A DNA stretch of 64,000 nt, from positions 8,707,278-8,771,277 of the forward strand of contig CAIIXF020000008.1 of NCBI GenBank assembly GCA_903813345.2, given 5' to 3'. Each line of letters opens with the position of its first letter. Positions within the stretch are counted from its first letter, which is position 1. Of this stretch, positions 1,256 through 64,000 are shown one piece after another. The notes below the pieces were generated by a model that had not been told where the DNA came from, did not search any database, and saw only the letters and a program-made list of their open reading frames with translations. Source of the stretch: Owenia fusiformis. Its lineage: Eukaryota; Annelida; Polychaeta; Sabellida; Oweniidae. The position numbers and the translations under genes are program-made.

Positions 1256-4200
1256 ATTGGTCAGCTCTGCTGGAGAAAGCTTATGCTAAGTATGATATTG
1301 ACCATATATTGCCAGTGAATGATTGATCGAGACATAGAGAGAATATTAATGAATTACAAAGAAACATTATTAAACCAATTATGATATCAAACAAATCTGC
1401 ATATGTAAATGTCTTTATGATTACTGGATATTGTTCTTTTTAGTATTATTGAATGACATAGAAAATGCAAATGACCATTTTCATTAATTTTCTCATTCAG
1501 ATTGACAGGTTCCTATGAGGCACTGAAAGGTGGCAGCACCAGTGAGGCTATGGTTGACTTCACAGGAGGTGTCGTTGAAATGTATGACTTCCGTAAAGAA
1601 GTACCAGCTAACATGTTCACAATACTCACCAAAGCTATGGAGAGAGGCTCCCTAATGGGCTGCTCTATTGAGGTATGCTGCATATAACCACTTTGTTATT
1701 TGAAAAATTATTCAACAGTGTTATTTACAATAAGCTCATGTTCAATGTACAGTTAAGGCAGCATTGTAAATTTTCAATATTTATTTATTTATCAAAAAAT
1801 ATTATCAATGCTGTACATGCAACACGTCATAATCTAAGATACCGCAATTATTATGATTATTAAGATTTTCCCTGTCTACTTATTTATGTGTGTACATATA
1901 TCTAGTTAGGATGGTAATTTGATTGATTACAATTTTTTCTAGGCAAAACCAGGACAGCTTGAGGCTGAACTACCCAATGGTCTGATTATGGGCCATGCTT
2001 ACAGTCTTACTGATGCAAGAGCGGTAAGTTACCAATGGTGATACTTTTACTGTTCAAGTCATTTATACTTGCTAAAATTATCTTGAATTGCTTGAAGTTC
2101 ACTTGTTGAAAATATCCTTGCCCCAAGAATCTTGTGTCTTAGAATTACTGAAGAAATTAAATAAGAAGTTATGACTGTATTTTGTTGGGTTTATTCAGTA
2201 GAGCCTCTGTTTAAATGCCCCTAGTAGTATTGATTATGGATTATTGTAGGTACATATTAAAACCAAGAGATCAAGTGGTGAAATGGAACTGGTTAGAGCC
2301 AGGAATCCTTGGGGTAATGAATGTGAATGGAAAGGAGCCTGGAGTGATCAGTAGGTTACCATGCAGATTGTTCCATTGCTATGGAAATTGATTGGTTGCT
2401 ATGGTAATGACACATGGTCACCATGGTGTTATATTACCAATGTTAATTCCTGAGAGGCTTTTTGTTAAGCTTTACTGATGCATGGTGTTTCTTCCTTTTC
2501 AGACTGCTGAATTGATGTGTTAAACTTTGATTGAGGAGTTTTTATCTCAAAATACGCCTTCCAATTGTTTAAAATGTTTTTACCAAATGGTTCTGAATAT
2601 TAACATGTTGGATTGGCATTTCATCATTCCATTTCAGACTGACAGATTTCTTCATACATGTCATACATCATCACCTTGCTTCATTCAGCTGATTGAGTCC
2701 TCACACTTGTGTATTGTATATTGTTGTGCTGATGCGCTTTAACATGCAGTTAATGCATGACTATGATGTTCAAGATTTGTAATTCTCTCTTGCTTCAATA
2801 CATGCTAACAGGTTAAGATCAAGACTCGCAGGTCTGAAGGTCAGATGCAGTTGGTGAGGTGCCGTAATCCATGGGGTAATGAGAATGAATGGAAGGGTGC
2901 CTGGAGCGATAAGTAGGTTGCTATGATAACCTTGTGTAACCATGTGTGTTACTAAGGAAACCGAATGCAGTGCACCTTGATTTAGTTTCTTCTTATTTTA
3001 AAAAAGGATAATAACAAACAACTTATTTTTCATCTATTATTTTTCCTTTGTACCTATCTGCAGCAGGATTGTATGCAATTATCATAGGATTGAGATCTCA
3101 ATTCTATGTGTCATTTAATGTTTTCCACTAAATTCTACATGATTGACTTTGCTTAAGATCTTTAAGAAAAGGCTGAACCTCTAAATAAAATGTGTGTAAA
3201 TCTTGCAATAACAATTCACACTTATAAAAAGTGTGTTTTCTTAACAAGGGTGGGTGGTTGGACAGAAGAGATGGACTGATGTAAGGGCATGTAGAATTTG
3301 GCGCAAAACTTTTGGGATGACAAAACTAATTGCAAAATGATGTGCTTAAAATCAAAAGCATGTATGCAGTGAAATACAAACAACAGTGTGATGTGAACTG
3401 TGAACAAAATAATATTTGTGCATTAGAATTTAATTTCAGGATGTGCATGACATGTGTGCTGAACTCATTGAAGTGATGATAACATTTTATGTATAACATG
3501 CTCAACTTTCAAGACTCCTTACCCCTTCTGTCTTACTCGGGTTGAGTTGGAGCAGAGGGTGTACAGGGTGTGGAGAGTTAATAACCAAAGACTTGGATTG
3601 TGTATAACAATTTTTTGTCTTAAAGAATGAACTAAGAACAGAGAATTTTGAATAATCCATAGTGTGTACCCATTTTAATTTTGTACTTGATAACCAGCAT
3701 ATGGCATGGAATTCTAGGTTAATATTCAAACCTCCAGGACAAGTGGGGTCATACCAATGGTGCGTGTCCGTAACCCATGGGGCAATGAGTGTGAATGGAA
3801 GGGGGCCTGGAGTGATAAGTAAGACAACAGGAGCTTCTTTAGTGTTGTCATAGAGATTTGATTTGTAGACAAGGGATGATGAAAGTCAGTCCCATGATGC
3901 ATCAGCATTATGTTGATTTCATTGTGATGCATCATTTGATTGGCTGTCACCTTAGATGTTGTGCATGGTGATAGATCTCAGAAGTCATTTGTGAATTATA
4001 CGAATGTCTTCATCACTTTTCCTTTAAAGACATTTTTAGTATATATCACAAATGATCAAATATTTTTGACATTAGATACAGTGTAATGTTACATTGCAAA
4101 ATCAGGATTAATAGCATGTGCCTGTTATGAATACATGAATACAAAAAGCTATTTTGTTCAGTGGTAAGAGTTGTAAGATGCTATTTGATTGCTTCATTTG

Positions 4201-7200
4201 TTGATAACATTAATTTCCAGACTTTAGATCATTAATTGTTATGGAATCTCTACTGGGCCTCTAGGGAGACCAGTTTTGGACTAGTAGAGCTACCCAGAAT
4301 AAATATAGTTTTCAAATCAAATCTTTTTAATGGGACGGGGTAGAATGAAAAGGATATACATGTACATGCATTTGTGTTTTGTTGTGATCACTGAGATTTC
4401 AATGTGACATGCCACACAGTTCACAAAATGAGTTGTAGATTATATTTATTTCATACTTCGTAGATTTCTTGTAGATGTACAATCATATCATATTGTAATA
4501 TTTCTTTGTATTTTGATGTGTATGTTTTTGCTATTTTGACTATTAGATGATTTGGTTGCCTAACATGTATGACTTAATATGTTGTATTAACACAATATTA
4601 TCATTTAGATGAAGACTGGTTATGTTGATTTGCATAGCATGGCTCACATATGGCACTAGGAGTACTGGATTTTGTTGCCCCAATATACAAATGTATTTCA
4701 ATTGTAGATACAAGTTAATATTCTATTTGGCTTGGTCATAATCAGAAAAGTTTAAATTATATTGAGGCCTTATCTGCCTCAAGTCTGACTGTGACCCTGC
4801 TTAGACCCTGGTGACACCATCAGACCCTGGTGACACCATCAGACCCTGGTGACACCATCAGACCCTAGTATGTAGCACCCTGTAATTAATATGTCACTTT
4901 ACTTATGTTTGTTATTGCTAATTTTGGTATTACTAGAGAAAATCTACTTGTTCATTCTGGAATAAAGTTTGCACTCATTTATATAGGAAGAACTGTCTAA
5001 AGTGAATAAACATTATTACTTTATTTCCCATTTGTGTATTTGAATATCGTTTGTCAGTCTGTGTGTTTACACTTTAGACAGGTTAAGCTATTTAGAAACA
5101 CGACTCATAAGGATGTCATTCAGATTTGAGAAACAAACATTGTGTTCAAATTTGAGCATGGTGACATTTTAATGAATAGCTGCATGTATCACCATTGTTG
5201 AGTTTCTTAACAGCCTTGTTTTGTGCCTAATAGCCAACCTGTTTGTCTTATGTAGTGCAATATTAGAACCCCCCGATCCGAGGGTAAGATCCAGTTGATC
5301 AGAGCCCGCAACCCCTGGGGCAATGAATGTGAGTGGAAGGGGGCGTGGAGTGACAGGTACACCCTGGTAATGTATTATAGAGTGATGATTCAACATCACA
5401 TTGTGTTAAGTTTAGTATGAGGAGCTGGTGGCTTTGGTGGTATATGGGTATGTAATACGAAGCCTATTGTCTGGATGCTAATATTCCAATAATATTGACT
5501 AATATGCTAAACTGCTAAACTTACTAAAAAAGATTATTTAACTAATAAAAGAACCTGGTTATTCCATTAACTTCCTATAAGATACTTGTGATATCTTAGA
5601 ATAATAAGTATCTAAAACTGGTGGAGTAAATGTATATTAACTGCTTTGGTGAAAGTAGCATTTATTTGATGTCTTTCTAAAATTAAAGATTAAATAAAGT
5701 AAATTTTCAACATCTTTTAAAATATAATTAATTGATTTGATATTTTGTTAAATTAATTAACATTGTATGCATTCCATAAATAATATATGAAGGAAAACAC
5801 AAAAATCTTAACAATCAAAGAAGTCATGCATTTTTACAACATCATGGACTTTTTACAATAATATTCTTTGTTTATAATAATAAAGCTAATTTAGCATAAA
5901 GTATTGATTTGTTATATATTCATTAGTATATGTGTTTTGAATGATACACTTAGGTAGATACGCATTTGCAGAGTAAATTTTTAGATTTAAAAAACATGAG
6001 ATGCTATAAACCCTAGCTCTGGGGGTGGATAACCCCTCCTTGGTAAGATATACATCAGTTAAATTGCTATATTGAGTATTTTGTGAAGAACTCTTATAAC
6101 ATGATTTGAATGTTCTTGCAGGTCTCCTGAGTGGAACTACATCCCAGAGGATGAGAGACAAGAGATGGGACTCACCTTTGACTCAGATGGAGAATTCTGG
6201 TAGGAGAATCTGACATATGATCATAAAATATAACCACAATAATTGAAGTCTCCAATGCCTTTTGACATTTTTGAAATACCTGAGCACAGTGTGCATTATA
6301 CAGATTTCATTATACCTACCTGTCTTAAACTGAAATATGAACTATTTTTTGAAAAATCATCATCAGATTGAAACTAGCTGGCCACTGGTTTAGTGCTAAT
6401 GTCTCATGTCACCTTGTATGTAAATGTACACATTTTTGATTCCAGGATGTCATTCCAGGACTTCACCCACAACTTCCAGAAGATTGAGATATGTAACCTG
6501 GGGCCTGATGCCCTCACAGAGGAGGAATCTGGTGGCAAGAAGAAATGGGAAGCAACCAGTCAAGATGGATCTTGGCGTAAACGAGTGAATGCTGGAGGTT
6601 GCAGAAACTTCCTTGGTAATTCATGCATTTTATGGTATTTTGAGGAGAGATTAAAAAGTAGTTGTTTTATGAGAACTAATTTAAACTAGGCTGAGCTAAC
6701 ATTTGCGAATTAAACTGCCGGCTGTCAGCTGATGACTTGACAGTGATTTGATTGCCATTTTGTGGCACTCATTTAAATATGAATAATACCTGCAGCTATT
6801 CATATTCATATGTAAATAAGTTGGCCATGGAATGGCAGTCAGCTGACAGAATCAAATTTCTTCGTGAATGTTAGCCATGACTCACCTGAATCTGTTCTTT
6901 ATTTCAACTTCTACATTTTGTGACCTACATGTATGTGCTTTGACATTCTTTAGATACGTTTTGGACCAACCCCCAGTATCGTGTACATGTAACAGACCCG
7001 GATGATGATGACGATGAAGACCTGGGCACAATTTTAGTTGCATTACTCCAGAAAGAACGTAGAAAGAAACGTAAAGAAGGATTGGATCTTTTAACCATGG
7101 GATACTCCATCTATAGGGTAAATAATACATGTTGTTTTGTCATCTATTGCTACATTGTGCAAGAGCTTTCTTAAAATAGAGACAATTCTTTGACCTAGCT

Positions 7201-10200
7201 TAAACAGATATTCATCAATACACAACATTTTCTGCCTATGTTATGGTTCCAGTTCCTACTCTTTCCTTCATTATAACAAAAACTAGTTATGAGTCAGTAT
7301 TTGGTGTCAGATGGTTTCAAATTTTCAGTTAAGTATGGTTCAGTTTTTAAATCCCTTGGTTCTGTTTTCAGTTGGGTCATTCGGTTCTTATCGCACTTTT
7401 ATATTCTGCTATGCGCATAAGAATGTAAAACAGAACTAGCCTGCATGATTGCCATGTATTTGATCTTACTGGCTATGTCTTGATATTTCACAAATGTAAT
7501 TCTAAACATTTAACTGTTAAAATAATATGTGTCGGCTGAATCTGATGTTTTGATGCTTATAACTGTCTTACCCATCAGCGTCTTTCTCAGCATCCACAGC
7601 AGACATTTTCTTTTACTACGTTATTTAAGCAAACGTGCATTTACAAATGGTAATTTTCCCGCAATTAACATTGGACCTGTCTAGGCCAATAACAGTCCGA
7701 GCACTGCAGTTTTGGTTAAATGTCTGTAGTCAGTATTCATATATTATGTGGATTCATTTTCTAGGACTCTGATATCTGAGGTAAAAATTGGAAATAATAT
7801 AAAACAATTGGAATGAAATTTCTTATGGTACCAGAATCAGTGGCATAGCGTGGGTATTTTGTGAGTGTAAGAATCGAACGATCTTTGAGGGGGTTCCCCT
7901 CCTTTGAAATTGAGAATGCAGTTGAAGCGTTCTGGGGCATTTTAAAATACCAATTCCGACTAATATGGACTAATGAAATGTAAAATATTAGCCATTTTTA
8001 AAGTGTGGGGCAATTCAATCTAAATAATCAAATTTTCTCTAAATTTTGAGAGTACGACATGGCGTTCTATGAGAATATTCACCAAACATCTAATCTTGTA
8101 CGTTACTATTTCAGCTGAAAGACCCAGACTGTGGACCGCTGGATCTAACTTTCTTCAAGTACAATGCATCCTGTGCCAAAGCCCCTGCCTTCATCAACAT
8201 GCGTGAGGTTTGTGGACGTCATAAGCTACCTCCAGGTCATTACTGTGTCATGCCTTCAACCTTCGAACCCAACCAGGAGGGTGACTTTCTCTTGAGGATC
8301 TTCTCAGAAAAGGCTGCCGAGGCTGGGTAAGATTCTTTATCATTTGTTTTGTCATCACCAGAGGCCTTATTCACAAAGCATTGCAATTTGAATGCGACAT
8401 CGCAATTTTGGCGCGGTATTCACAATGACAAGATATCGCAATCGCGTAGCAATAGCAATCGTATTAGGATAGCAATGTGTTAGCAGCTTTACTGTAACAA
8501 ATAAAGTAAACATAGGATGGTTGAAATGGTATTTAATTGATTTACGACTGTCCGTGAGTTAATAATAAAAACAAAGATTAAATAAAATAAAATTGTTGTG
8601 TTTAAATGATTTTATAGACCCAACATCCATTTATTTGAAATCGCGTAGCAATAGCAATCGCATTAGGATAGCAATGTGTCAGCAGCTTTACTGTAACAAA
8701 TAAAGCAAACATAGGATGGTTGAAATGGTATTTAATTGATTTACGACTGTCCGTGGAGCTAATAATAAAAACAAAGATTTTAAATAAAATAAAATTGTTG
8801 TGTTTAAATTCTATTTTGATGGGTATGGGAGGGGACCCGCTCAACCCTCTCAAAATTATATCTTCTAGGAACTTTGTTTATGTTAGCTGTTTTCCAATAA
8901 TCGTTCCATCAATCCCCTTCATTGCCTCAAATCGTCCACTCCTCCATATTTTTACAATACAACGACGATACCTCTCGATCATCTCATGATCATCGTAAAT
9001 ATCCAATGGATGTGTTCTGTCACGAATAAACCTCGGTCTTACTAGATGCTGTCTGCGGTTCACCGCTATCACCGCCATTTTGTTTTACAGTGTCTCAGAC
9101 GACTGATAATGGCGGGAATTATAAAATTGTGATTCATTGATAGCAATTTTAGATGAAACATAGAAAATATTCTTCCATTATTTAAGACAACTTTAGAACC
9201 TTAGTATCTCGTCAGAACACATGAAATGACGATTTTTTAAAATCATATGTTGGTTAGTATACCGAAAAACGACATATTAAAATAGCAAATAATTCTGAGA
9301 ACGCTAAACGCATTTAATTAAAACATAAAGCAACCCTTAATATTGCGACTGTATTGGGGCTGGTAGAGGGTAGTCGCAATTATATGACGCTATTAATGCG
9401 ATTGAATTGCTAAGTCGCAATCGCACTTTGATTGTGAATAAGAATTTTAGCGATTTTTGCGATGGCGATTGCGATGTCGCAATCGCATAGGATGTGACAC
9501 ATTGTGAATAAGGCCTCAGAAGTGGATATATTGCTATAGTCTCCACCTTTTTGTGGATGGTGTTCGGTGTTTTATGATATGTGGTTGGTGTCATTCAGGC
9601 TCTGTAACAAATGGCAGGTGGTGACATTTTGCATGTTAATGCCTTGTTTTCTTTATTTATCATATAAAGAGGAAACTTACATGTGATTCTTGCTAAAAGG
9701 CATTTGAAACTTAGTAACAGTCATATAAAAGAGATGTAGCTTCACAGGGCTGTTGCAATGCTGAGTCAGAATTACTTTTTTCTTATCTCACACAGTGCAT
9801 TGAATAATATGGCTTGCTTGTGGCAAGTTAGTATATTCAGTTAAATAAAATCCTTATTGGCAAACAATTATGAAACAAGAAATCTTCTATTGTCTTACTG
9901 AGTGTTAAAAGATTGTCCTTCTTTAGGTTTTGAAGTTCGGTTTCAAGTTTCTGTACATGAAACCTCTGTTATGAAAATAAAATATTCCTGCTAGTATCTT
10001 CTCTTACAACCAGGCTATAACCAACGTTATAATCTGGCAATTAGTTATAACATGGGCTTTTAAGAGAAGGGCATGCATAAATATTGCCTAAGGTTTTTAA
10101 AATTGGAGGAAAATGCTCCATGTACTCAAAAATAAAAACATGATTATCTGCATACATCTCGTATAATACAGAATGGAATTCATCATAATTTGTTTTATAT

Positions 10201-13200
10201 GCCTCTGTGAAATCGGAACATTCCTCACAAATTACATTTTTATTGGAATGCGTTCTTGAATAACTACCCGCTATACAATATTCAAGGATAAGCGTTTGAT
10301 ACCTCTTTTTCTTATTTGTTCAAAATTGATTTTTTTTTCAAGATAAAAAATATACATCCATCTAATACTCTCTGAAATATGATCAAAAAAGGGAAGCATG
10401 ACAATGCTCATTTTGAAGTTCTCATGTTTATAACACAGAGTAGCATACCCTTCTCATGAAAGCCTATGGTTATAAATAATATTTATTGTCTCTGTACATA
10501 CATATACGATGGCGTAGCGTCATATGCGCATAAAACGCCATGGCGTACTCTCAAATTTTAGAAAACAGATTTTTTATATTGAATTGCTCCACACTTCAAA
10601 AATGGATAAAAATGGCTAATAATTTACATTATATTCGTCCATAATAGTCGGAATTTCGTATTTCAAACGCCCCAGAACGCTTCAAATGCAATCTCATTTT
10701 CAAATTTTCTTGGGGGGACCTACCCCGAAGCTCCCCCCCCCAGAGCACGTCTATGTCGCTCACTCGTGGCGTACACTCACAAAATACCCACGCTACGCCA
10801 CTGATATATGTTTTTGTCAAATGTTAAAGGGAGTGAAAGTAGAAATTACATTAAACTTTTTCAATCATTGAAAGATGTCACTTCAGTAAAAGTGGCAAAA
10901 TAGATGGCAGCACAAATCATCTTTGAACTAGGAAGTGAAATGAACAACTTTGACCTTTAGAAATCTTCCAACTTTTACAAGACAAGTAGTTTCCTGAAGT
11001 TCAGAACCAAGCCATGATATAAATAGCAATAATTACATCTGCAAGGTGCTGTTCTTGATTAGAGCTGATATTGATATCTGGTGAATGTAAAGGTTACAAA
11101 GATAAACTTGTGTATAGGTGCAACTAGGAAGCAAGATGGAGTCTTGAGGTCAAACTGGCCTCTGATATGTCTGTTCATAGACTCGGGTAGACAAACATTA
11201 CGTTGATTCTGGCAGGAAGTTGGGATGTTATAATGGATGCATTGTTTAGATAGTATATCTTGGATAAACAAATATTGTGTCAATAACAGACTGAAAAAGT
11301 GATAAGCTAAATCTACCTGTTGATATCAAACTGCATCATATCATACGTACTTAGCTTGTACAAACAAACACTGATAGCGATCTAGAGAAAGCCTTAAAGT
11401 ACAATTAATCAGCTATGGCATATCCAAGGTCTCGATACCACCCTACTATGAAGCTAGGGATGGATCCCAGGAGATGGGCTTATGTAACAGGACAGCAGGG
11501 AGGTTACCCCTCAGCTGGGTTTAGCTACCCTCAATCTGGGGGCTTTGGACAAACACCATATCCTGCACAACCAGGACTAGGCTTTGAATCATTAACAATA
11601 AGTGATGGGGGAGCAGGTTATCCACCCACAAATCACGGATATCCATCCCAAATGCCTGGAGGATATCCCCCATCTGGACAATCTGGATACCCTCAAGCAG
11701 GTTACCCACCAACACAAGGTGGTTACCCACCAACACAAGGTGGTTACCCACCAACACAGGGTGGTTACCCACCAACACAAGGTGGTTACCCACCAACTCA
11801 AGGTGGTTACCCACCGACACAAGGTGGTTACCCACCGACACAAGGTGGTTACCCACCGACTCAAGGTGGTTACCCACCCCCTTCTCAAGACTTACCGACT
11901 CAAGGGGGGTATCCTTCAGGCCAACCTTCATATAATCCAGCATATGCACCAGGTGCTCAACCAAACTATCCTGCACAACCAAGTTATCCAGCTCAACCAA
12001 GTTATCCATCCCATCCAGGTGCCCCTGGGAGTGCACACCCAGGGGGAAGCTATGGCCAGGGGTATGATGCAAGTCAGGCATCTGGTCCAGTAGATAGGTA
12101 TACAGGGTGACTCATACTTAATGAGTTCTATACCACTACATTAATTATGAGACACCCTGTGAACAGACCCGAAGATTCCCAAAATTTGATATTAGCCCTT
12201 TGGACATGTAACTGAAATTCTTTTTCATCCATGATGATTTTACAAGATGGGGAGTAGCAGTTGTGGATCTGGCTAAAATGGGCATTGTGTGGTCCTCATT
12301 TTAGAAAAAAGGTCTCATATTAATTGATAAATGGGCTTTCCTCGAAAAATAATACATTAATAGAGTTTATGTTTTCAATATTTTCAAGATGTTACTTAAA
12401 AAGTCACAAAATTTGACTAAGTAAAACATATTGAGCCTAAAATACATGTGCCTGTCGACCTTGCCAGCTATATAAGGAAGAGGGGTATGTTACCTTTGAA
12501 CAATGAAAATATTGCAGAATCATAGTAGGACTCTAATACTGCAGTTGCACTTTAGCTATGCTCCAGTAATGAGACTCCCACTATTTTCAGATAAAGTTTA
12601 AGAAAATTTTATAAGAAAGTGTTTCTCTTTTCTTGGATTATTGATTGAGTATTGAAAAGGGTTATTATCAATATGGGCATTCAGTACATTAATTTGACTT
12701 GTCTGAATTGTCTGTTTTCGTTTCAAGTCAAAAGTATTTGTGGAGCCATACTTGCTTGATAAAAAAGTAACTTGTGAATCTGAGGGTCTGTCTGTGCATG
12801 GCTTGTACTTTTAGAGAAAAGTTATAATGGTTGAAACTTATTTTTAACTACTATCCACCAGTATGGGTAATGAAACAACACTGTCACATAATATTATCTA
12901 GCAGCCACAAATAATATATTTTGAATAGCATGTAAGTTGAGCTAGTGGTTGGTTGTATCAGTCACCGATCTGTTGATTCCGCATTTGCAGATGTCAATGT
13001 TCATGTTAACCATTAGGTCATAATGCCCTAGAGATAATACATTAATTGTTAGCTTTTTTTATCAAATACCTAAAAGAATGTAAAAAATATATAAATAGGG
13101 CTTCATATAAACTGTATGTAGCATTGACCTGAAATGACATGTTGCCGAATTCTGTACAAGCACCATCACAAAACATCATGGTTTCATTGCATATATTATT

Positions 13201-16200
13201 TTTGAAGTATATGTGCATTTTTAAAATGTTATCCATTGCTATACTATAGAGCACCATCAACACATATTAACTTGGCAGATAGTTTGTGAATTTTTACACT
13301 CACTGTCAGTTAATAGCTGATCGAGAAAAAATTCAAGGGGTTAATCAAAAGTTATGTTATTTTGAATATGTAAATTCAGTAAATTTTCGAACCACTTTAT
13401 TGACTCATATCTTGAATCTAAATCCTAAATCACTCAGTAAGACTATAGGAGGATAAATTAAAGAAGTAAGAAACAAATGTTTAATTTAAATTTCCACAGT
13501 TAAAATGTTATGTTTTTATGTCCCCACCACATAGTGTGGGGCCATATTGTCGGCCTAGGCGCGTCCGTCCGTCCGTCCGTCTGTCCGTCCGTACGTCCGG
13601 GAGTTTTCTCCAAAACCGCTACAGATATCACCTTCAAATTTTCAGGGATAACTTATGAGTGCATACAGATGTGGATGAAAAAATTTGAACTCGATACCTA
13701 CTTCCTGTCGGCCATTTTGAAGTCAAATGCTAAAATCCTTGTCTGCAAACTTTAAGAAAAACGGCTTCACAGTTGCTTTTAAAACTTTAACATCTTGTTC
13801 AGCTCACTTCATTCTAGATCTGATTAGGTTTTGGACCTGTTAGCTCAGTCATGTCAGCCATTTTGAATGTCTTAAGAAAAGTTAGCGCACGATAATACTT
13901 TGTATCATATTGAATGGTGTTTCTGAGTTTTCATACTTTAACTATTTTGTAGCTTTATAAATAATTGCAGATGTACTTTGTTGTAAAAGCCTATGTTATT
14001 ATTAAAAGTAGTTATATGTGATAATTTTGTAAAAAGAAATCAGCAAATACTCATAATCACTTTTTTATTGTCGGCCATTTTGGATTTTTCCGTCCTAAAA
14101 TCTTGTCTGTGAAGTCTTGTCTACGTGTTTTCAGGTGAACCGTTTGGTGGATCAATTTCAAATTTTCAGGGATGATTTTTAGTATGAAAATCTAGATCTG
14201 ATTAGTTTTTGGCATTCTGGGTAAATGTCAAGGCAGCCATTTTGGATTTTCCGTCCTAAAATCTTGTCTGTAAAGTCTTGTCTACGCGTTTTCAGGTGAA
14301 CTATTTGGTAGATCAATTTCAAATTTTCAGGGATGATTCTTAGTATGAAAATGTAGAACTGATTAGTTTTTTGGCATTCTGGGTAAATGTCAAGGCAGCC
14401 ATTTTGAATTTTCCGTCCTAAAATCATGTCTGTAAAGTCTTGTCTACGCATTTCCAGGTGAACCGTTCTGTAGATCAATTTCAAATTTTCAGGGATGATT
14501 CTTAGTATGAAAATCTAGATCTGATTAGTTATTTGGCATTCTGGATAAATGTCAAGGCAGCCATTTTGGATTTTTCGTTTTAAAATCATGCCTGTAAAGT
14601 CTACACGTTTTTAGATAAACCGTTTGGTAGATCAATTTCAAATTTTCAGGGATCATTCTTAGTGTGAAAATCTACATCTGATTAGTTTTTTGGCATTCTG
14701 TGTAAATGTCTTGTTTACATGTTTTCTATTGAACTGTGTGACGGATCAATTTAAAATTTTCAGGGGTGGTTCTTAGTTCTTAAATTTTAAGGTGGCCATT
14801 TTGGATTTTCCGTCCTCAAATTGTGTTGGTAAAGTCTTGTCTACTCATTTTCAGGATAACCATTTGATGGGATCACCCATTGGTGGGGACATATTGTACA
14901 CATTTGTGTTCTTGTTTCAATTTGTTACAGGGTGTTCACCAGTTTTGAGACTGAACATGACTGAGAACATTTAGATAATAACAATCCTGAAAAATTCTAT
15001 ATGTTTTAAGGAAATACTGTTTCCAAATTTTTGTTAAAAACTGTTCAGTTATATTTTTTTTATTATTAAGAATGAAAAAGTTGTCAACTTTCTTAATTGA
15101 TACTGTTTTATTTAGAGTGTTCGAAGAGAGGTTGGGCCAAATTGGAGTAATGTGCTGCATCTCAGTCTATAAACCTTGTGGTCACCCTGTATTTTTGGAA
15201 GTAAATTGCAGTTGTTTTATTTCATTTTTTGTGTATTTGCAGAGAAATTGATGAGGAGACAGGAATCCAGGATATTGATGTAAGTTTACATTTAATATTT
15301 GCATCTTCATATATATATACAGATGTACTGTATTCTTGTTTCAACCTTTTATTTCTATCTTTGTTGAATAATATACATTACAGTTTTCATAGACAACCAT
15401 TTGTTTATCATTTAGATATTAATACACAAAAGAAACGATGTACAAATAGGAGCTTCGTTATTACATCTATACATTATTTCCACTGCATAAATTTCTTACT
15501 AGAAATGAATCATTTAAAATTGAAAAACTGGAATTACTTTATTGGAAGAAGTTCATTTGATTTAACCAGGTATGAAATTATCCAACAGAGATAAAAATAA
15601 GAGTCCCAAGAGTGTATCTTGTCAGGCTTATGTAGATGAATTCGAGGTATGTCCAAGAAGTTCCTTGAGCTAGCCGGAACTTTTTGGATAGCCCTCAGTG
15701 TAGGCACCTTGTAGTTTAGGAGGTTCATACTGAACACACTTTGAGAGTCTAGTCATAAAACTGACACAAGTGCATGGTATCTCAAGCAATGTGGTCATTA
15801 AAAGGATTTTTGCCCACAATTCTTGTGCAGTAATTTGATGAAGATGTAAAAATGAAAAAAAGTCTTGCATCAAGTTCCTGTGTCAAGCTCACACTTATTT
15901 TTCTCCCAATGTAAGGTTAAGGAATAAATACTGAGGGAAAGGGTTAGAGAATGGGTAGAGGTGAGGAAAGGGTAGAGACTAGGGGAATGGGTTAGATTAG
16001 GGGAAAGGGTAGAGACTGAGGAAAGGGTAGAGACTAGGGGAATGGTTAGAGATTAGGAGAATGGGTAGAGATATGGGGAATGGGTAGAGACTAGGGGAGG
16101 GGCAAAGGCTTGATGCAAGACTTGAAGTTGAACAATCTTTATTTAAATATCACCCAAAGTGTGCACAGTACATTTTGTAGTCAATTATTAAGAGTCTAAT

Positions 16201-19200: not shown

Positions 19201-22200
19201 AGTGTCACATTTATTCTGATCTGAAATATTATTTAAGGTAAGCCTGGTAGAGTGAGTTATCTTGTTGTGACCTTTCACAAGAAGGTTTACACATTGATAT
19301 CATGTATGATCAGCAGGGATTGAAACTTACAGCTGCCTGACTGCCAATAGCAATTACGTTGCACTCTTGGCAATGAACTTGGAAAAATGAGTTGCCTATT
19401 GGGCAATGGATTGAATGCCAATATGTTGAATTGGGCAATCATATATTCGAGCTTAGTCATGAACCCTGATGATCAAGTTTAAAAAATTATTCTACAAGGC
19501 CCTCCTTAAAGCTTGCTTAATTTGGAAGGTTTTATTGTATTTCTCTCTATAATTAAGGTATTGCTTATCTAAAATATTTGTTTTTATTTTTATATTGTTT
19601 CCCTATGCACAATAAGTATTATTTAACTACTCTTTTTGATTGATATTTACTTTTTGCTCATGATTTTGAAATTGTCATTTGCACAGTTTTTACTGTCTCA
19701 TTGTGTAAATAATATGTCCCAGCACAGTGTGTGTAAGAGTGTTGGAAGTGAATGCAACTTAAAGTAGAACATGCATCTCGCCAATCAGGTGCAGAGTTGT
19801 ATTCACTTCATTCGTTTCTATGATACCACCATAACAGTGTGAACTTTGAGAGTGATTGTATGAAATATGACGTGTATGATTAGATTGTACTGATGAATAT
19901 CTCCATCCTATGACAGAAGAACAATCCATGTGTACTAGATTTCAGCTCTTATTCAATTACATGGGTTTAACACCTGCAAATTATACATTTATTTGGTATA
20001 CCCCCAGGAATAATTTCTGTAACTTTGTTGAGTTTGTCTATGGAATAATGGAACATATGGCTTGTATTGGTCATACTTAGTATGTATATCGGAATTAGCA
20101 ATATGTTTGTATAATCTTGTATGATAATGCCAAATAGGTATATAATTCTTGAAAAGTTTTGATATGTCCATCTATTCATTGTTCAATTCTAAAGGAGAAA
20201 TGCATTTTTGCGATTATCTGATTGTTTAAAGACATGCTAAGGCAAATGACACTTTCCTCTCAATTAATTGTGCCGTATAACATGTAGTTCCAAAAAAGTT
20301 CTGGTTTTGACATTTTTGAAACAATTATTTATCTTAGCAATTCTTCAAGAACCCTATAGCCCCAGCATGTTCTCCGGGATGTGTAAGTTAGTCTATACTT
20401 CTAATAAGATAGTATCCACATCATTTAAAGTCCCCGTCTAAAGTTTGAAAATATTTTTTTATCATTCATTTACTATTTGTCAGGACTTAAAAAGTGATTT
20501 TAGAGATTTTTGAACAAAAAAAAAATTTTGGAAAAAAAAGTTGTGAGCATTTCATTTCTCAAATATTCAAATTTCCCGCCATTTTTCAAAAAGAGTTGAA
20601 ATTTCTTAATCATCAAATATTTCTTAATGCATTTCAAAAAAGATTATCTTTTTAATACTTATGCAAAGGTTGAACAAAGGACACACTATTTCAATAATAA
20701 AATGCCATATTTAATGGGCCACTTCAATGTTTTAACATATCAAAAATATTTTGAAACATTAGTGATGTCACTAAGGTACCAATATCTTTTTGAAAAAAAT
20801 TGAAATTTTTTTTTCGATGTCAATCTTTTCTAAATATGTTACACTTTCATAAAAAAAACAATGTTGATTGTCTAACCAGGTTAAAAGGAAGAATAAATTA
20901 TGTTTTAGGTATCATTGTACCATTGGTTTCTATGAGAACTAAAATTTTGAAATGCATTTTTCTCAAAACCATTTTCATGCACTGATAAGTTCATTTCTCG
21001 CTTATTTATGCACCGATTTTCTTAATTTTTTCGGCAAAAAACGTGAGAGGATGAATGCTCTGCATTCGTATGAATTGTGGCTAATTAGAAGATATGAGTG
21101 ACCTCTAAAAGTTGGTTTTAAATAAATTCACAAATTTTGGAACAAAAAGTCTATCAAAAACCACTTTTTGAAATTAAAAAAAAAGTTTCACATATCACAC
21201 TTTGATAACATTGGGTAAGACTACAATATAAGCCAAAGTGGTTTAAACTTTATATGGGGCCTTTAAGCAAAAACCAGCCATATACAAGTTAAGAATCTTT
21301 AAAATCATATCACATTCTATTTCTAACAAGTATCAACTTTTTCTCTTTTAGCCTCCACCAAAGACAGATGAGGACGTTGCCCAGGATGAGGCTCTTAAGT
21401 CAGCTTTTATTGGCATTGCTGGTGAAGACATGGAGATTGATGCTTATGAATTAAAGGATGTCCTTGATAAGGCTTTCAAGAGAGGTAAACATGCACTGTT
21501 TATGTTTTTGAATCAGTAATTTTTGAATGTAATGAATTAAGCATCTTTATTTGACTGGGTGTTCATAATGTTTGTTACTTGTTTGTGTAAACAGCAGTAT
21601 ATTGTTGAAACAAACGTTTTCTGCCTCGCAAGTTGCATGGATATTTCCAGATATATTGTTGCTCTTATCATCTTAGTCTTTGTAATATCAAAATGATCAT
21701 TGTGAAAAAGTAATACAACAGATAAATGACTTTTGATGAATTACATTTTGATGAGATTTTGGTAGATTATTAATAAATCTCCATAGTAACTATATATTAT
21801 ATATATATTATATATGCATGTTATCTATTTTTGTGTCGGAATAATAGCCATACGTAAGGTTTTATAATAGTATGGATGTGACACTATAGAAATATAGAAG
21901 TGCTTAGAATTTGATATATGTGTGCTTTAACTGACTTCGTTTCAGGGTTTGGTTCAGGTCTTTACAACTAGCAATGATTCTCTCCTTGCTTTATATATTT
22001 TATAAATTTCACAATTTCTAACCATGATTTTGAAATTATTGTAAAAGAGCCTGTTGTTAAAGATAATATTTTTATGTTTTGAAGGGGTTTTCAATCAAGA
22101 TAAACTATTTCTTTGTGAGAACTGTTGTATTTTTGTTGTACAGTGCATATACACATGTAGTATCCAAGTTATATAGCCCCTTGCTACAGCCATCAAGCCA

Positions 22201-24553
22201 ATACTTCTTCCAACAAAATCAGGATATGCCGATACAATACAACATGTAGCTGTCATGCCCTTCTTGATAATTTGGATACTGCATGTGTTATCAGATGTCA
22301 TAAATTCACAGATTTATTTTCCCAAAACATTTTTTGAATATGTAGTATTGCTTTAGATGTTGTTAACCAAAGTAACTGAGAGAGTGTAATGTTAAGATAT
22401 CTATGAACTTTTCTTTATGAAAATGACCTGAAATATCCAAAATGACAAATGTTTAGAATATTCTGATGCAGAATGTTCCAATAATGTTCAACACACATTT
22501 TAATACATTCCATCAAGAAAAATGTCTCTCTCCATCATTGACTTGCATGTTAGATAATAAAAAAATTGTTGTTTAACTTCATAGAAGGACACAGCTAATT
22601 TACAATAAAACCTGTGTATATGAAGACCTCTTTTAAGTGAACACTCAAAAATGAACATGCAGATATCTCCTGAATTCCCCCATTTGATCAGAACCTTTGA
22701 GTGTGTCCCATTGTTCCATTTTTCCAGTTTTAACAGACAATCTATGTTCACTGATGTTTTACTGTACTTATTATTCATTATTGGTTTACTTTTATTTCAG
22801 AGTTCAACTTTGATGGCTTCAGCAATGAGACCTGTAGGAGTATGGTGGCTATGAGAGATGTATCCTTATGAGGCAATTAAGAATCACTGTGAAATTAATG
22901 AATGGCAATTATAGTTATTTCATCACAATCATGTTTTAGCAAAATTACTGCATTCCCACTGACCCTCGAAAAAAATATTTGAGATAGTTGTACTGTTCTC
23001 ATTGAACTTGATTTCCCAGCCTCTGTTGTACTTTTGAATTTTAATGATCATCGATGTTAGATACCATAAGATTCTTTATAATTCACTTCCTTAACCCTGC
23101 CAGTTTGATCGCTCTGGTAAGCTAGGATTTGATGAGTTCAAGGAGTTATGGGCAGACTTGAGAGTGTGGAAGGGAATGTTCAAGAAGTTTGATCAGGACA
23201 AGAGTGGACACCTCAACAGTTATGAGCTGAGGAAATGCCTCAATGGAGCAGGTATGTGATAAGTTATGGCACTAGATTATGAACTCTTGATCTTTGTTAC
23301 AGATCCTGCCTTCAAGTAGTTACTAAACCTCTACAAATTTGGGTAAAAATATTTTTAAGTAGATACCCTTACATTCAATAATTAAAAAAAAATACAGTTC
23401 TAATGTACAGTGCCATAATAAAAAATGGTACTATACTTTCTTTTTCATATATAACATACGATACGTATATTATACATGTACTTTCCTTATACATGACAAT
23501 ACTTTCCTTGTGCATGAAATGTACTAGTATTATAATTTTCTTACTTATTTCTTTCTGGTTCAGGCAAGATTGTTTGTGCTAGTTTGAGTGGTCCACGACT
23601 CGTATAAAAGACTGTGGTGTGTAATTGTATGTCTTTGTACTGGTGCACACTAAAGAACACTGGGTTCCAAGGGGTTCCTGGCTCTGTCTTCGAGTGTAAA
23701 ATACATAAAATACAGAAAATACCAATTAGGAATTGCTTGCCGATTATGGCAGTAACCAAGATACAATACAATACACATGTACTTTCTTTTTAGGCTTCCG
23801 TATCAGCAACTCTACATTCAATGGCCTGGTGATGCGTTATTGCCACAAGGACGGTCATATTTACTTTGATGACTTCATACTCTGTGCCGCACGACTCAAG
23901 ACAATGTTTGGTAGGTTAAAGCAATATATATTTTGACACTAGGGTAATAGTTAGGTGAAATGTATTCATTTTGAGCCTTCTGACCTCTTTTTGAAAAATG
24001 TTTTGTCAGCCTATGGTAGATCACAGCCTTTTCTGACTGGCCTCCCTCCTGGCATCCATATCATAGGATATCTTCTCTTCACATTGATATACAAGTATAT
24101 TTCATGTTACAATGTTCTTTGCTTACAGATATTTTCAAGGAGATGGACCCCAATAAGACAGGCACAGCTGGGTTCACTCTCGATGCAGTAAGTATTATGA
24201 TTATATATATTTGTACAATTTACCATTACAATATACCAGTATACAAATAAAATGTACCAAACAACTAAGTTGCACGCAATAAATACTGGGAGTAAAGTAT
24301 TGGCTAAATTAATGTCAAACTTTGCAACCAGCATATAATGTCAAACTTTGCAGACAGCAATCTTTATGACCAAAATTGTAAGTTTTGAAAATTGGAATTG
24401 AAATGATCCTGTGTTCCAGTCACATCATAATATCCAATAGGAGTTTCTTGAAATTAATTCCTGAACACGTTTACTTGTTCTATTTTATCTGTTTTTCAAT
24501 TTAAAATCATTGTTTTCTTGTTTCAGTTTGTGCAGACTACAATGTACTCATAA
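1156..24553 (+). CDS. Classical calpain (PEF-type cysteine protease), 3' part of gene
   Basis: Calcium-dependent cytosolic cysteine protease. Coding exons read: 1156-1289, 1501-1672, 1943-2023, one of four 101-bp exons (2250-2350, 2812-2912, 3718-3818, 5256-5356), 6122-6199, 6446-6615, 6954-7117, 8115-8326, 15243-15279, 16886-16915, 21352-21484, 22801-22859, 23104-23251, 23794-23910, 24129-24187 and 24527-24553 (TAA). Phases agree throughout and give 573 residues in this window. Seen: [20 protein letters not shown] and [14 protein letters not shown] of the protease core, the catalytic His in [13 protein letters not shown], the catalytic Asn in RNPWG, a C2-like domain with acidic loop [11 protein letters not shown] and the [12 protein letters not shown] motif, then a penta-EF-hand domain ([25 protein letters not shown]) ending FVQTTMYS. 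The catalytic-Cys exon is upstream of position 1. The family is certain; the paralogue is not resolved. Confidence 0.95.
2250..2350 (+). CDS. Calpain alternative exon 4a (catalytic Asn loop)
   Basis: 101 bp, preceded by TTGTAG and followed by GTAGGT. It starts in phase 0 and ends two bases into a codon. It encodes [20 protein letters not shown] and continues [13 protein letters not shown]. The Asn of RNPWG is the catalytic Asn of papain-fold calpains. It is the first of four exons of equal length and phase that fill the same slot between exons 1943-2023 and 6122-6199. Confidence 0.9.
2812..2912 (+). CDS. Calpain alternative exon 4b (catalytic Asn loop)
   Basis: 101 bp with acceptor AACAG and donor GTAGGT, same phases as 4a. 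It reads [20 protein letters not shown] and continues [13 protein letters not shown]. It has a Cys just before the RNPWG motif and NEN where the other copies have NEC. If 4a and 4b were both included, 4b would be read out of frame and reach a TGA after about 15 codons, so co-inclusion is not productive. Confidence 0.9.
3718..3818 (+). CDS. Calpain alternative exon 4c (catalytic Asn loop)
   Basis: 101 bp with acceptor TTCTAG and donor GTAAGA, same phases. It reads [20 protein letters not shown] and continues [13 protein letters not shown]. The residues before the Asn motif (IPMVRV) are the most divergent of the set, while the RNPWG core and the EWKGAWSD end are unchanged, as expected if the copies stay functional. 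Confidence 0.88.
4803..4868 (+). repeat. Short minisatellite in calpain intron
   Basis: Three copies of the 19-bp unit AGACCCTGGTGACACCATC, followed by a partial fourth, lie between alternative exons 4c and 4d. Confidence 0.85.
5256..5356 (+). CDS. Calpain alternative exon 4d (catalytic Asn loop)
   Basis: 101 bp with acceptor ATGTAG and donor GTACAC, same phases. It reads [20 protein letters not shown] and continues [13 protein letters not shown]. It lies closest to the common downstream exon (6122-6199). It uses more G and C at third codon positions than the other copies, which suggests the copies are not very recent. Confidence 0.88.
7841..8072 (+). mobile_element. MITE-like repeat, copy 1 (GTGGCATAGCGTGGG family)
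   Basis: The sequence begins GTGGCATAGCGTGGGTATTT and matches, in opposite orientation, the repeat at 10510-10800 over most of its length (shared GAAGCGTTCTGGGGC, TTAGCCATTTTT and GAGTACG-CATGGCGTT blocks). It lies in the calpain intron just before exon 8115-8326. Its outer end is worn. Confidence 0.65.
8362..9516 (-). mobile_element. PIF/Harbinger-like element with transposase fragment
   Basis: Terminal inverted repeats AGGCCTTATTCACAA are flanked by CAG on both sides (8359-8361 and 9517-9519), a likely 3-bp target duplication. On the - strand, 9078 down to 8878 encodes a short peptide with [20 protein letters not shown] followed by [11 protein letters not shown]. This resembles the N-terminal end of Harbinger transposases (arginine-rich, then NPL-x-Y-DD-x-E-RYR). 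No catalytic domain is present, so the copy is non-autonomous. Subterminal regions are rich in GCGATTGCGATGTCGC-like words. Confidence 0.7.
8441..8790 (+). repeat. ~200-bp direct duplication inside the Harbinger-like element
   Basis: The block starting TCGCGTAGCAATAGCAATCG at about 8441 recurs at about 8641 and includes CATAGGATGGTTGAAATGG and the ACGACTGTCCGTG segment, with only a few differences. It is an internal tandem duplication of the element. Confidence 0.8.
9590..9650 (+). repeat. Dispersed repeat with copies at 49890 and 61110
   Basis: CTGTAACAAATGGCAGGTGG followed by TGACATTTTGCATGTTAATG. A close copy is at 49890-49945 (+) and an inverted relative at about 61105-61160. It begins 70 bases after the Harbinger-like element. 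Family unknown. Confidence 0.6.
10510..10800 (-). mobile_element. MITE-like repeat, copy 2 with TGGCGTAGCG terminal repeats
   Basis: The ends TGGCGTAGCG and CGCTACGCCA are inverted repeats. The interior is an inverted relative of 7841-8072. It holds a run of C (about 10732-10741) and no convincing reading frame. No clear target duplication was seen. Confidence 0.65.
11018..11026 (+). promoter_or_regulatory. Candidate TATA box upstream of GYP-rich exon
   Basis: TATAAATAG matches the TATA consensus about 390 bases upstream of the ATG at 11415. If used, transcription would begin near 11050 and give a leader of roughly 360 bases with several upstream ATGs. This is only a sequence match in AT-rich DNA. 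Confidence 0.3.
11415..12097 (+). CDS. GYPPTQ-repeat alternative first exon inside the calpain gene
   Basis: An open frame starts at ATG 11415 (purine at -3 and G at +4), with an in-frame TAA nine bases upstream. It encodes a Gly/Tyr/Pro/Gln-rich tract with eight tandem copies of a GYPPTQG heptad (21-bp DNA repeat, about 11699-11866), then [16 protein letters not shown] and SGPVDR. The donor AG|GTATAC at 12097/12098 leaves two bases of a codon, the same phase as the donor at 8326, so it joins exon 15243 in frame ([10 protein letters not shown]). The product would be about 227 low-complexity residues, then the linker and the penta-EF-hand domain. That is the layout of calpain small subunits and peflin. 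An unspliced reading ends at 12110. A fully separate nested gene remains possible. Confidence 0.6.
13517..14893. mobile_element. TIR element with CGTCC microsatellite and 162-bp tandem core
   Basis: The ends are TATGTCCCCACCA (13517-13529) and its inverted match at 14881-14893. After the left end come a (GTCC)n-like tract (about 13561-13600) and then direct repeats of about 162 bp, seen from GCCATTTTGGA starts at 14073, 14236, 14398 and 14560, with further degenerate copies. No transposase was found. It lies in the intron between the GYP-rich exon and exon 15243. Confidence 0.7.
15861..16122. mobile_element. Small TIR element filled with purine-rich minisatellite
   Basis: AGTCTTGCATCAAG at 15861-15874 is inverted as CTTGATGCAAGACT at 16109-16122. 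Between them is a strongly strand-biased purine tract built from variants of GGGTAGAGACTAGGGGAAT. No reading frame. Confidence 0.65.
18843..18905 (+). CDS. Candidate 63-bp calpain cassette exon (linker)
   Basis: It lies between AATTTCAG and a GTAGGT donor of the same form used by alternative exons 4a and 4b. Its length is a multiple of three, it has no stop in the phase set by the flanking exons, and it encodes [20 protein letters not shown] plus one Gly. It would insert between [10 protein letters not shown] and PPPKTDEDV, just before the EF-hand domain. It is not required for the frame, so it could be an optional cassette or a chance fit. Confidence 0.4.
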
Positions 24554-33159: not shown

Positions 33160-34282
33160 GTTTTAGTGCTTTGAATAACATTCAGCTTCAATCAGTCTGG
33201 TTTCCATCAGATCATGTTGCACTCTAATCAGATCTCATAACACATCAGTCAGTTCTCATTGCCTCAGTTTTCAGTGCATTTTAATTAAATCTCTTAGCAT
33301 TTCAATGAGTTCTCACCGCATTCCATTCAGCTCTCATTACAAATCAGTTCTTACTGCAAATTTGCTTTGTTTCTCCAGGTGGCCTCCTGAGTGATGAGTT
33401 GTAGATTCATGACTTGATTGTTTGATGTTGTTTAGCCAATTCATAGAGGTCTATATATCATGGATGAATCTGAAAACAATAATGTATGACTTAATCTCCT
33501 ATGACTGAATTTTCTCATATGACTAGCCAAGATACAGCCATCTTTACCCCATGTAAGATATAGAGGTTCTTATATGAGTACCTGTGCAAGATCGTCCATT
33601 CTTGATGAGCTTTGATAATTCTTCTTTATCGAGTCAAAGACGAGATAAAGAAACATTATCAAAGCGAGTCAAGAATGGACGATATTGCACAGGTACGAGT
33701 ACAAGAAAGTTTTTCTCATATGACTCTGTATTATGCCATATTTTCACCATTTTATCATAAAACTGAGTAAAAATTGCTTCAAATTAATTGAACTTCATCT
33801 TTCAATTGTTATGACGTCATAACAATATTGAAGAAAATACATAGATACATGTGTCAACAAAGCTCCATTGTTATGACGTCACAACTTAGTTTTGTAGAAT
33901 TAGCATGGATACGCATAACAACGCTGTACCCGTTGCCATGTTGTTGATGTTTATAGACCGGTGATGTCACAAGTAAATCTCATCTTGCACGTGTGACTTT
34001 TTAGGATGAAAGATGGCAATATCTTGCATGGGGTAAAGATGGCTGTATCTTTGTTGGTCATATGAGAAATTGCAATCTTTCATCCTAAAAAGTCACACGT
34101 CTAAGATGAGATTTACTTGTGACATCACTGGTCTATAAACATCAACAACATAGCAACAAATACACCATTGGTAAGAGTATCCATGCTCATTCTACAAAAC
34201 TAGGCTGTGACGTCATAACAATGGAGCTTTGTTACCATGCGTATCTATGTATTTTTTACAATATTGTTATGACGAAAGATAT

Positions 34283-36527: not shown

Positions 36528-36528
36528 T

Positions 36529-36546
36529 TGGTGGCAGCGGTGGGAT
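36529..36546 (+). other. Primer-binding site, matches tRNA-Leu 3' end
   Basis: TGGTGGCAGCGGTGGGAT begins one base after the 5' LTR. It is complementary to a tRNA ending ATCCCACCGCTGCCACCA, as in animal tRNA-Leu (AAG type). The tRNA match is from memory. Confidence 0.7.
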
Positions 36547-36561
36547 CTGTTGCTTTAGAAG

Positions 36562-39357: not shown

Positions 39358-39632
39358 CAGAGGAGCCCAAATGGCTCCTTCCCTAAATGTGACAATCTTA
39401 AGTTAAGATAGTTAGTTGAATGAGCAATTACTGATCATGATCATGTGATTTTTTTGAGAGTATATAAGTGTAGATAGAGTGTTGATTGAGCGAGTATTGA
39501 TGATAATGCTGTAACTTTTTTAGAGGAGATAAGTTAGCTCTTTACTTGTATTTATTTTTGTAAGAGGTGCTCGAGCTCTCTATGTATTTTTGTAGAAGTT
39601 AAGTTTATATTGTGTGATCGTGGGCGATCAAG

Positions 39633-39647
39633 CTTAGTAGGGGGGAG
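39633..39647 (+). other. Polypurine tract
   Basis: AGTAGGGGGGAG immediately precedes the 3' LTR, the usual start site for plus-strand synthesis in LTR retroelements. Confidence 0.75.
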
Positions 39648-63875: not shown

Positions 63876-64000
63876 CTGGCAAAAGAAATGTAAATAGAAA
63901 TTATAAACTATAGGCTATACTTGAAAATTATCATATTCATAATACATTTTCATCTAATTTGGATCAATTGAATGCAATACTACAATTGTATACCATTCAA

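Follow-up and report, generated by a model that had tools for sequence, protein, structure and literature searches.

In the annelid Owenia fusiformis, a classical calpain gene appears, with a probability of roughly 0.8, to contain a mutually exclusive cluster of four tandemly duplicated exons, each encoding the catalytic asparagine of the protease. The gene lies in a 64 kb stretch of DNA, referred to here as the window, and has the domain order of a classical calpain: a protease core, domain III and a penta-EF-hand domain. The spliced product matches the Peptidase_C2 profile (PF00648) at 281.5 bits, against a cut-off of 23.8, over positions 96-297 of 297; the match starts at position 96 because the 5' part of the gene, including the Cys exon, falls outside the window. 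It also matches domain III (PF01067, 162.6 bits), and its C-terminal 192 aa match EF-hand families. Together with alignment to calpain-1, which places the triad His in the exon at 1943-2023 and the triad Asn in each of the four copies, the Peptidase_C2 and domain III matches uphold the identification of the gene as a calpain. The deposited O. fusiformis calpain P0123 is identical to the gene model containing copy 4c at 563/563 residues, supporting the joins used in the model, and includes the sequence QGELGDCWLL, which we take to be the Cys motif of the triad.

Structure of the gene and of the exon cluster

The annotated features, all on the + strand, are as follows.

1156-1289, +: first calpain exon visible in the window, protease core (Peptidase_C2 match, present in P0123)
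1501-1672, +: calpain exon, protease core (Peptidase_C2 match, P0123)
1943-2023, +: constitutive exon upstream of the cluster, with the triad His (GHAYS; calpain-1 alignment)
2250-2350, +: alternative exon 4a, 33 codons plus 2 bases (anatomy, selection and frame tests)
2812-2912, +: alternative exon 4b, 33 codons plus 2 bases (anatomy, selection and frame tests)
3718-3818, +: alternative exon 4c, 33 codons plus 2 bases, the copy in P0123 (anatomy, selection, frame, profile, P0123)
5256-5356, +: alternative exon 4d, 33 codons plus 2 bases (anatomy, selection and frame tests)
6122-6199, +: constitutive exon downstream of the cluster, contributing 1 base of the junction codon
6446-6615, +: calpain exon, end of the protease core and start of domain III
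6954-7117, +: calpain exon, domain III (PF01067 match)
8115-8326, +: calpain exon, domain III, single in Owenia; its counterpart is swapped in oyster isoforms
15243-15279, +: linker exon joining domain III to the EF-hand domain (P0123)
21352-24553, +: six penta-EF-hand exons (EF-hand matches, P0123), at 21352-21484, 22801-22859, 23104-23251, 23794-23910, 24129-24187 and 24527-24553 (with the stop)

The cluster is situated between the exons at 1943-2023 and 6122-6199. Rechecking the sequence reproduced every element of its anatomy as given in a preliminary description: the coordinates, the length of 101 bp in all four copies, the individual AG and GT signals, the common phase (0 at the start, 2 at the end) and the cores ELVRA (4a), QLVRC (4b), IPMVRV (4c) and QLIRA (4d). 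The codon spanning the junction with the downstream exon encodes Gln after 4a, Lys after 4b and 4c, and Arg after 4d. No fifth copy of the Asn exon was found in the 64 kb window, nor was an intact second copy of the gene's other tested exons found in its first 26 kb, the 27 bp last exon being too short for such a search; within the same 26 kb, the exon at 1156-1289 has a partial second copy with an in-frame stop. A near-identical tandem duplication is also present nearby, at 953-1263.

Age and selective constraint

The four copies are old and all are under purifying selection. They share 68-73 of 101 bases, with around half or more of the mismatches at third codon positions, and their pairwise amino acid identity of 22-26/33 compares with means of 12.9-15.3 when an equal number of base changes was placed at random; in each of the six pairs, the observed identity was reached by at most 1/5000 trials. 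The likeness of the peptides is thus not due to chance. Values of dN calculated by the NG86 method were 0.18-0.28 in all six pairs, while synonymous sites are near saturation: dS was 1.2 in one pair and 1.6 in another, and the remaining four were saturated, hence not computable. No similarity between the introns of the cluster was detected at E 0.5 or below, indicating that the copies are ancient rather than an assembly repeat. The notion that copies of a single exon were wrongly lined up, as an assembly or haplotype artefact, might draw on the tandem duplication nearby, but the divergence of both exons and introns makes this extremely improbable.

Reading-frame consequences of exon choice

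Only the use of one copy at a time is productive. When all 16 possible subsets of the exons were spliced in silico, the four single-copy forms remained open to the natural stop, whereas in each of the 12 others (none, six pairs, four triples and all four) translation ends early, 959-1437 nt before the last junction. Earlier claims that skipping all four copies or including two would break the frame, and that 4a joined to 4b reaches a TGA after about 15 codons, are both borne out. In the pairs 4a+4c and 4b+4c, the first stop is outside the cluster, in the exon at 6446-6615; inclusion of all four restores the length modulo 3 and fails only through a stop in 4b. The statement that exactly one copy must be chosen consequently holds at the level of the productive reading frame.

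The early stop in every wrong combination would also be expected if the extra copies were mainly poison exons, lowering calpain output through nonsense-mediated decay following double inclusion or skipping, with the differences between the peptides being minor. Such a role would leave the protein sequence free to change, whereas all four peptides are constrained, and chance alone is expected to put stops into 33 codons read in a shifted frame; we consider this explanation improbable as the main function of the copies, though poison-exon action could operate alongside exclusive use.

Variable and constant residues

All four copies have the same heptapeptide RNPWGNE, and neither the catalytic Asn nor the Pro-Trp gate nor two calcium ligands vary among them. 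Of the 13 positions that do vary, all but one lie ahead of the heptapeptide, in the segment running from the triad His to the triad Asn. The placing of these variable residues in the core is based on the calpain-1 alignment and the general calpain fold. Exon positions 19, 21, 26 and 33 align to Asn296, Trp298, Glu302 and Asp309 of calpain-1, supporting the Asn of the RNPWG motif as that of the triad (triad numbering from PMC10380737; roles of the four residues from passages of PMC4057710). The remaining variable site, exon position 25, is Asn in 4b only, and its counterpart is reported in a passage of the latter source to contact the gate Trp. The preliminary description was therefore right that the exon carries the triad Asn, but with the motif constant and 12/13 changes before this residue, 'alternative catalytic loops' is an overstatement.

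Copy 4c is canonical, whereas 4a, 4b and 4d deviate in the same two uncommon ways, having Gln or Glu at position 13 and Ala or Cys at position 17. Scored with a profile built from 148 distinct homologous segments, 4c reached 78.2, close to the segments' median of 77.4, and the others 70.0-72.2. This canonical character, along with the occurrence of 4c in the one deposited Owenia protein, is what would be anticipated were 4c the sole working exon and the rest old copies fallen out of use. However, an unselected copy would be expected to look different from the other three, and none does: all six pairs are constrained at amino acid sites with synonymous sites near saturation. Every copy also retains an open frame, both splice signals, the length of precisely 101 bp, and the residues for catalysis and calcium binding. 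Furthermore, 4a, 4b and 4d are within the range of the homologues, of which 21, 24 and 29 of the 148 score lower. The sole use of 4c hence appears unlikely.

Splice signals and a proposed mechanism

The splice signals of the variant exons are weaker than those of the gene's 13 other exons tested, with a pyrimidine fraction of 0.55 as against 0.70 (one-sided p 0.010) and a 5' site score of 0.62 compared with 2.31 (p 0.051, with approximate scoring weights). The preliminary description had suggested predicting competing RNA pairings among the introns; when this was done, no docking/selector signal beyond shuffles was found in four layouts, mostly of 300 nt zones in one genome, the best score being matched by 20/20, 2/10, 2/8 and 18/20 shuffles. 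Of the eight splice sites examined for local hairpins (four donors, four acceptors), only the 4b donor region folded unusually well, with a z of -2.49; the other seven ranged from -0.98 to 1.23. Steric exclusion was set aside given inter-copy introns of 461, 805 and 1437 nt, and U2/U12 incompatibility was set aside from the donor sequences, none of which has what we take to be the U12-type start.

We propose that the ancestral exon following that of the triad His was copied in tandem long ago, and that its phase 0 start and phase 2 end would cause mRNA with zero or several copies to be out of frame or stopped and presumably destroyed by nonsense-mediated decay. Choice of copy would most likely be made by splicing regulators acting on the weak splice sites. 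The gene therefore probably yields four calcium-activated proteases with small differences; these lie just before the Asn, and in the case of 4b also at the counterpart of the residue contacting the gate Trp. The swap may tune the enzyme's response to calcium, its stability or its binding of partners, and would not serve as an on/off switch for catalysis. Among the 120 matches listed, the sole Owenia protein, P0123, carries one copy, 4c; this was counted against the proposal, as were the negative pairing result and the behaviour of the exon in other species described below.

Comparison with other species and known systems

A single form of the Asn exon per species was found among 72 oyster proteins of six species, and none of the named isoforms in this set swaps it. 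Two forms within a species occur in Biomphalaria glabrata, Dimorphilus, Plakobranchus, Bradybaena and Contarinia (two proteins each), but these proteins are 47-86% alike overall and so look like products of separate genes. Six pairs considered as isoforms (P0012/P0047, P0002/P0039, P0031/P0032, P0047/P0227, P0117/P0226 and P0162/P0207) differ along their length and were rejected as exon swaps, being separate genes or species. A region search with 4b gave two proteins, too few for use.

As proposed for Owenia, oyster calpain-B-like isoforms of the same family (Crassostrea, Magallana and Saccostrea records) swap a homologous exon-sized segment. In the C. virginica pair P0141/P0151 and in two Saccostrea pairs, all differences are confined to a stretch of around 72 residues, of which the two C. 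virginica segment types share 45/72. By contrast with Owenia, this swap, known from protein records, affects domain III, at the counterpart of 8115-8326, and not the Asn exon. Exon swapping in calpains is consequently not unique. Literature searches found neither the Asn-exon cluster nor the oyster swap described; the earlier impression that such a calpain cluster is undescribed thus stands for print, but the oyster database isoforms mean that calpains already offer an example of the kind, and only the position of the swap, the Asn exon, is new.

Alternative exons of a single gene also change the working part of a proteolysis protein in two serpin genes of insects, Manduca serpin-1 and Pteromalus PpSerpin-1, where they encode the reactive loop (passages of PMC10513286). 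However, serpins are inhibitors in which the swapped loop sets target choice, whereas the Owenia protein is a protease with a constant catalytic motif. OGDH is likewise an enzyme with tandem exons, of which the mutually exclusive 4a and 4b change calcium regulation, 4b carrying a calcium site needed for activation (an excerpt of PMC9177970); both calcium ligands are present in all four Owenia copies, by contrast, leaving no on/off switch of the site. Dscam-type clusters similarly comprise several similar exons, one being chosen via docking/selector pairing (extracts of PMC6071210). In the single Owenia genome no such pattern was found beyond shuffles, and the stop in 4b additionally blocks inclusion of all four.

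It is conceivable, though doubtful, that annelids have long made use of the Asn-exon swap, also beyond Owenia, with a non-canonical class (4a, 4b and 4d) having a retuned calcium gate beside canonical 4c. A quick tree groups two proteins carrying the non-canonical class, P0190 and P0228, with the leech Helobdella; P0228 matches 4d at 24/24 residues from position 10 on, and P0130 and P0134 are canonical sister sequences of the two.

The diversity of calpains is usually put down to gene duplication. In the present case, the protease-core segment beside the catalytic asparagine seems to be available in four versions from a single gene, and oysters swap another segment. Transcriptomes exist for these species, those of Owenia comprising fourteen samples from development and nine from adult tissues (PMC9977687, ENA PRJEB38497), and such natural, selection-tested variants may indicate where in the enzyme calcium sensitivity or the choice of partners is determined.

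The four-exon cluster

Four exons of 101 bp, proposed in the preliminary description to have their own splice signals and identical phases, were confirmed in the sequence in both coordinates and borders, each being preceded by AG and followed by GT, starting in phase 0 and ending in phase 2. They lie between two exons of a calpain gene:

1943-2023, calpain exon carrying the His of the catalytic triad
2250-2350, exon 4a, first copy of the exon carrying the triad Asn (Asn exon)
2812-2912, exon 4b, second copy
3718-3818, exon 4c, third copy
5256-5356, exon 4d, fourth copy
6122-6199, calpain exon following the cluster

The gene could be rebuilt from position 1156 to a stop codon at 24551-24553, giving an uninterrupted product in which every join used GT-AG. 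The first 370 residues of this model matched Peptidase_C2 and Calpain_III and aligned end to end with the solved calpains 1 and 2, while the C-terminal 192 residues matched EF-hand families. A protein search, in which 8000 candidates were scored, 7023 matched and the best 120 were listed, placed an unnamed protein of the annelid Owenia fusiformis (P0123) first among those listed, ahead of a second match at 71% identity; the model carrying 4c is the same as P0123 at 563/563 residues. According to excerpts from PMC9977687, splice-junction hints were used in Owenia gene annotation; the junctions of P0123 may rest on reads. Separately, a 151-bp tandem duplication (953-1263, 96% matches) copies part of exon 1156-1289; its first copy contains an in-frame TAA and would act as a poison exon if it were spliced in; alternatively, the duplication is of recent date or arose at the level of the assembly.

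Reading frame and splicing control

Every possible combination of the copies, 16 in total, was spliced in silico. Each of the four single-copy forms was open to the natural stop, and the remaining 12/12 met a stop 959 to 1437 nt upstream of the last junction, which would trigger decay by the usual rule; the proposal that copies are used one at a time therefore holds at the level of the reading frame. Including all four restores the length modulo three, yet the shifted frame reaches a stop inside 4b, so that this combination could be blocked here, through a stop that may have arisen by chance. The exon phase was probably inherited from the original exon, so that no selection for the frame rule has to be assumed.

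In one-sided tests on a small sample, with approximate scoring weights, splice signals were weaker in 4a-4d than in 13 other exons (for donor scores only at p 0.051). The donors of 4a and 4b have GTAGGTTRCYATG in common by eye, and all four donors are presumably of the major type. Steric exclusion was rejected, as the introns between copies are too long. Competing RNA pairings had also been envisaged among the cluster introns, but in four layouts, mostly of 300-nt zones in this one genome, no docking/selector pattern (Dscam-type intron pairing choosing one exon) was better than in shuffles. Taken together, these points favour a mechanism in which trans-acting regulators would pick one copy and misjoined mRNA would be removed. 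The 4b donor region (2893-2982) has a folding z of -2.49, equalled by 3/200 shuffles, the sole such case among eight splice-site regions, and the intron separating 4c from 4d contains a 19-bp tandem repeat (3.4 copies, 4803-4866).

Sequence constraint

Any two copies are identical at 68 to 73 of their 101 bases and, in the encoded peptide, at 22 to 26 of 33 residues. NG86 estimates of dN were 0.18 to 0.28 across the six pairs, with dS of 1.2 and 1.6 in two and not computable in the other four; maximum likelihood pointed in the same direction (dN 0.16-0.25, with an unstable dS of 1.7 to 31). When an equal number of changes was placed at random, mean identity was 12.9 to 15.3 of 33 residues, and the observed identity was matched in at most 1/5000 trials for any pair. 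No similarity between cluster introns was detected at E 0.5.

Residues that differ between the copies

In papain-like folds, the stretch between the His and the Asn forms a hairpin. Across 4a-4d, 20 of the 33 residues are invariant and 13 vary (positions 1, 2, 4, 6, 8, 9, 11, 12, 13, 14, 15, 17 and 25). In an alignment with calpain-1, position 19 corresponds to Asn296, 20-21 to Pro297-Trp298, 26 to Glu302 and 33 to Asp309. Asn296 is the triad Asn in excerpts from PMC10380737; in those from a modelling study (PMC4057710), the Pro-Trp pair obstructs the active site without calcium, Val301 contacts the Trp of this pair, and Glu302 and Asp309 bind the second calcium of the core through their side chains. 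The counterparts of Asn296, Pro297-Trp298, Glu302 and Asp309 are constant in all four copies; that of Val301, position 25, is Cys in 4a, 4c and 4d and Asn in 4b. The exons had been read as alternative catalytic-Asn loops; with the Asn, the Pro-Trp pair and the calcium ligands constant and 12 of the 13 variable positions preceding the Asn, the swap is instead predicted to change the lead-in to the catalytic loop, leaving the loop itself unchanged.

An ungapped 33-residue segment was taken from 238 of 240 fetched proteins, a few of them shorter here and out of register before the Asn, giving 149 distinct segments (148 excluding 4c itself). Position 13 is Pro in 130/148, and position 17 is Ile, Val, Leu or Met in 143/148. 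Copy 4c has both typical residues, and 4a, 4b and 4d have neither, a non-canonical state found in 3/148 segments: those of P0190, P0228 and P0122, the last being a distant match that aligns poorly. A quick tree was built from 58 chosen proteins, with Asn-exon columns removed and SH-aLRT as the only support; in it, P0190 and P0228 paired (100), then joined P0130 and P0134 (98), both canonical at the Asn exon, and this group joined P0239 and the leech Helobdella (99). The non-canonical class may have multiple origins or may descend from an old annelid variant; the protein database, clustered at 90% identity, hides isoforms.

Other features of the window

11415-12097 (+), Gly/Pro/Tyr-repeat reading frame with its own ATG, no Pfam match itself, and a 21-bp unit in 8.5 copies at 11700-11878
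29281-33162 (-), unbroken frame of 1293 residues with many putative C2H2 zinc-finger motifs by eye
35487-41397, likely LTR retrotransposon, near-identical frames (35487-35921 and 40852-41286) bracketing one that gave matches to zinc-knuckle and aspartyl-protease families
63469-63900 (-), probably an exon from a gene for a THOC3-like WD40 protein (partial match to PF25174 at 181.8 bits, under the whole-domain cut-off of 305)

The first of these ends at a possible donor whose phase fits linker exon 15243-15279; joined in frame, and with translation starting inside the large-subunit gene, they would give a 420-aa Gly/Pro-rich and penta-EF-hand protein resembling a calpain small subunit or peflin.

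Comparison with other calpains

In other species, 72 oyster proteins from six species gave one Asn-exon form per species. Two forms, in two proteins each, occur in Biomphalaria glabrata, Dimorphilus, Plakobranchus, Bradybaena and Contarinia; these pairs were rejected as exon swaps, as they are only 47-86% alike overall and look like separate genes. Among the same oyster proteins, drawn from a listing limited to 120 matches, a domain III segment has at least two forms in five of the six species and one in Ostrea edulis (7 proteins). Pairs from C. virginica (P0141/P0151), Saccostrea echinata (P0132/P0147) and S. cucullata (P0133/P0155) differ solely in this segment; they are named as isoforms, and the swapped homologous segment is around 72 residues. 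In Magallana gigas and C. angulata, the pairs inspected have further differences elsewhere or in length. The swapped segment, seen in protein records, corresponds to Owenia exon 8115-8326, of which no second copy was found in the first 26 kb of the window.

Titles and abstract openings, in a literature mostly excluding subscription papers, revealed no published calpain Asn-exon cluster. Similarly, none was found in excerpts from PMC9177970 or PMC4784788, and 'calpain' and 'CAPN' are absent from the main texts of a human mutually-exclusive-exon survey (PMC5740500) and a human tandem-exon paper (PMC9741552). The suggestion that such clusters are undescribed in calpains thus stands within the literature searched, with the qualification that databases already contain exon-size swapping in oyster isoforms at another place: it affects domain III there, whereas in Owenia it would affect the Asn exon. 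The four-exon cluster is real and constrained, and is probably functional; new as far as these searches reach, it belongs to a well-known kind.
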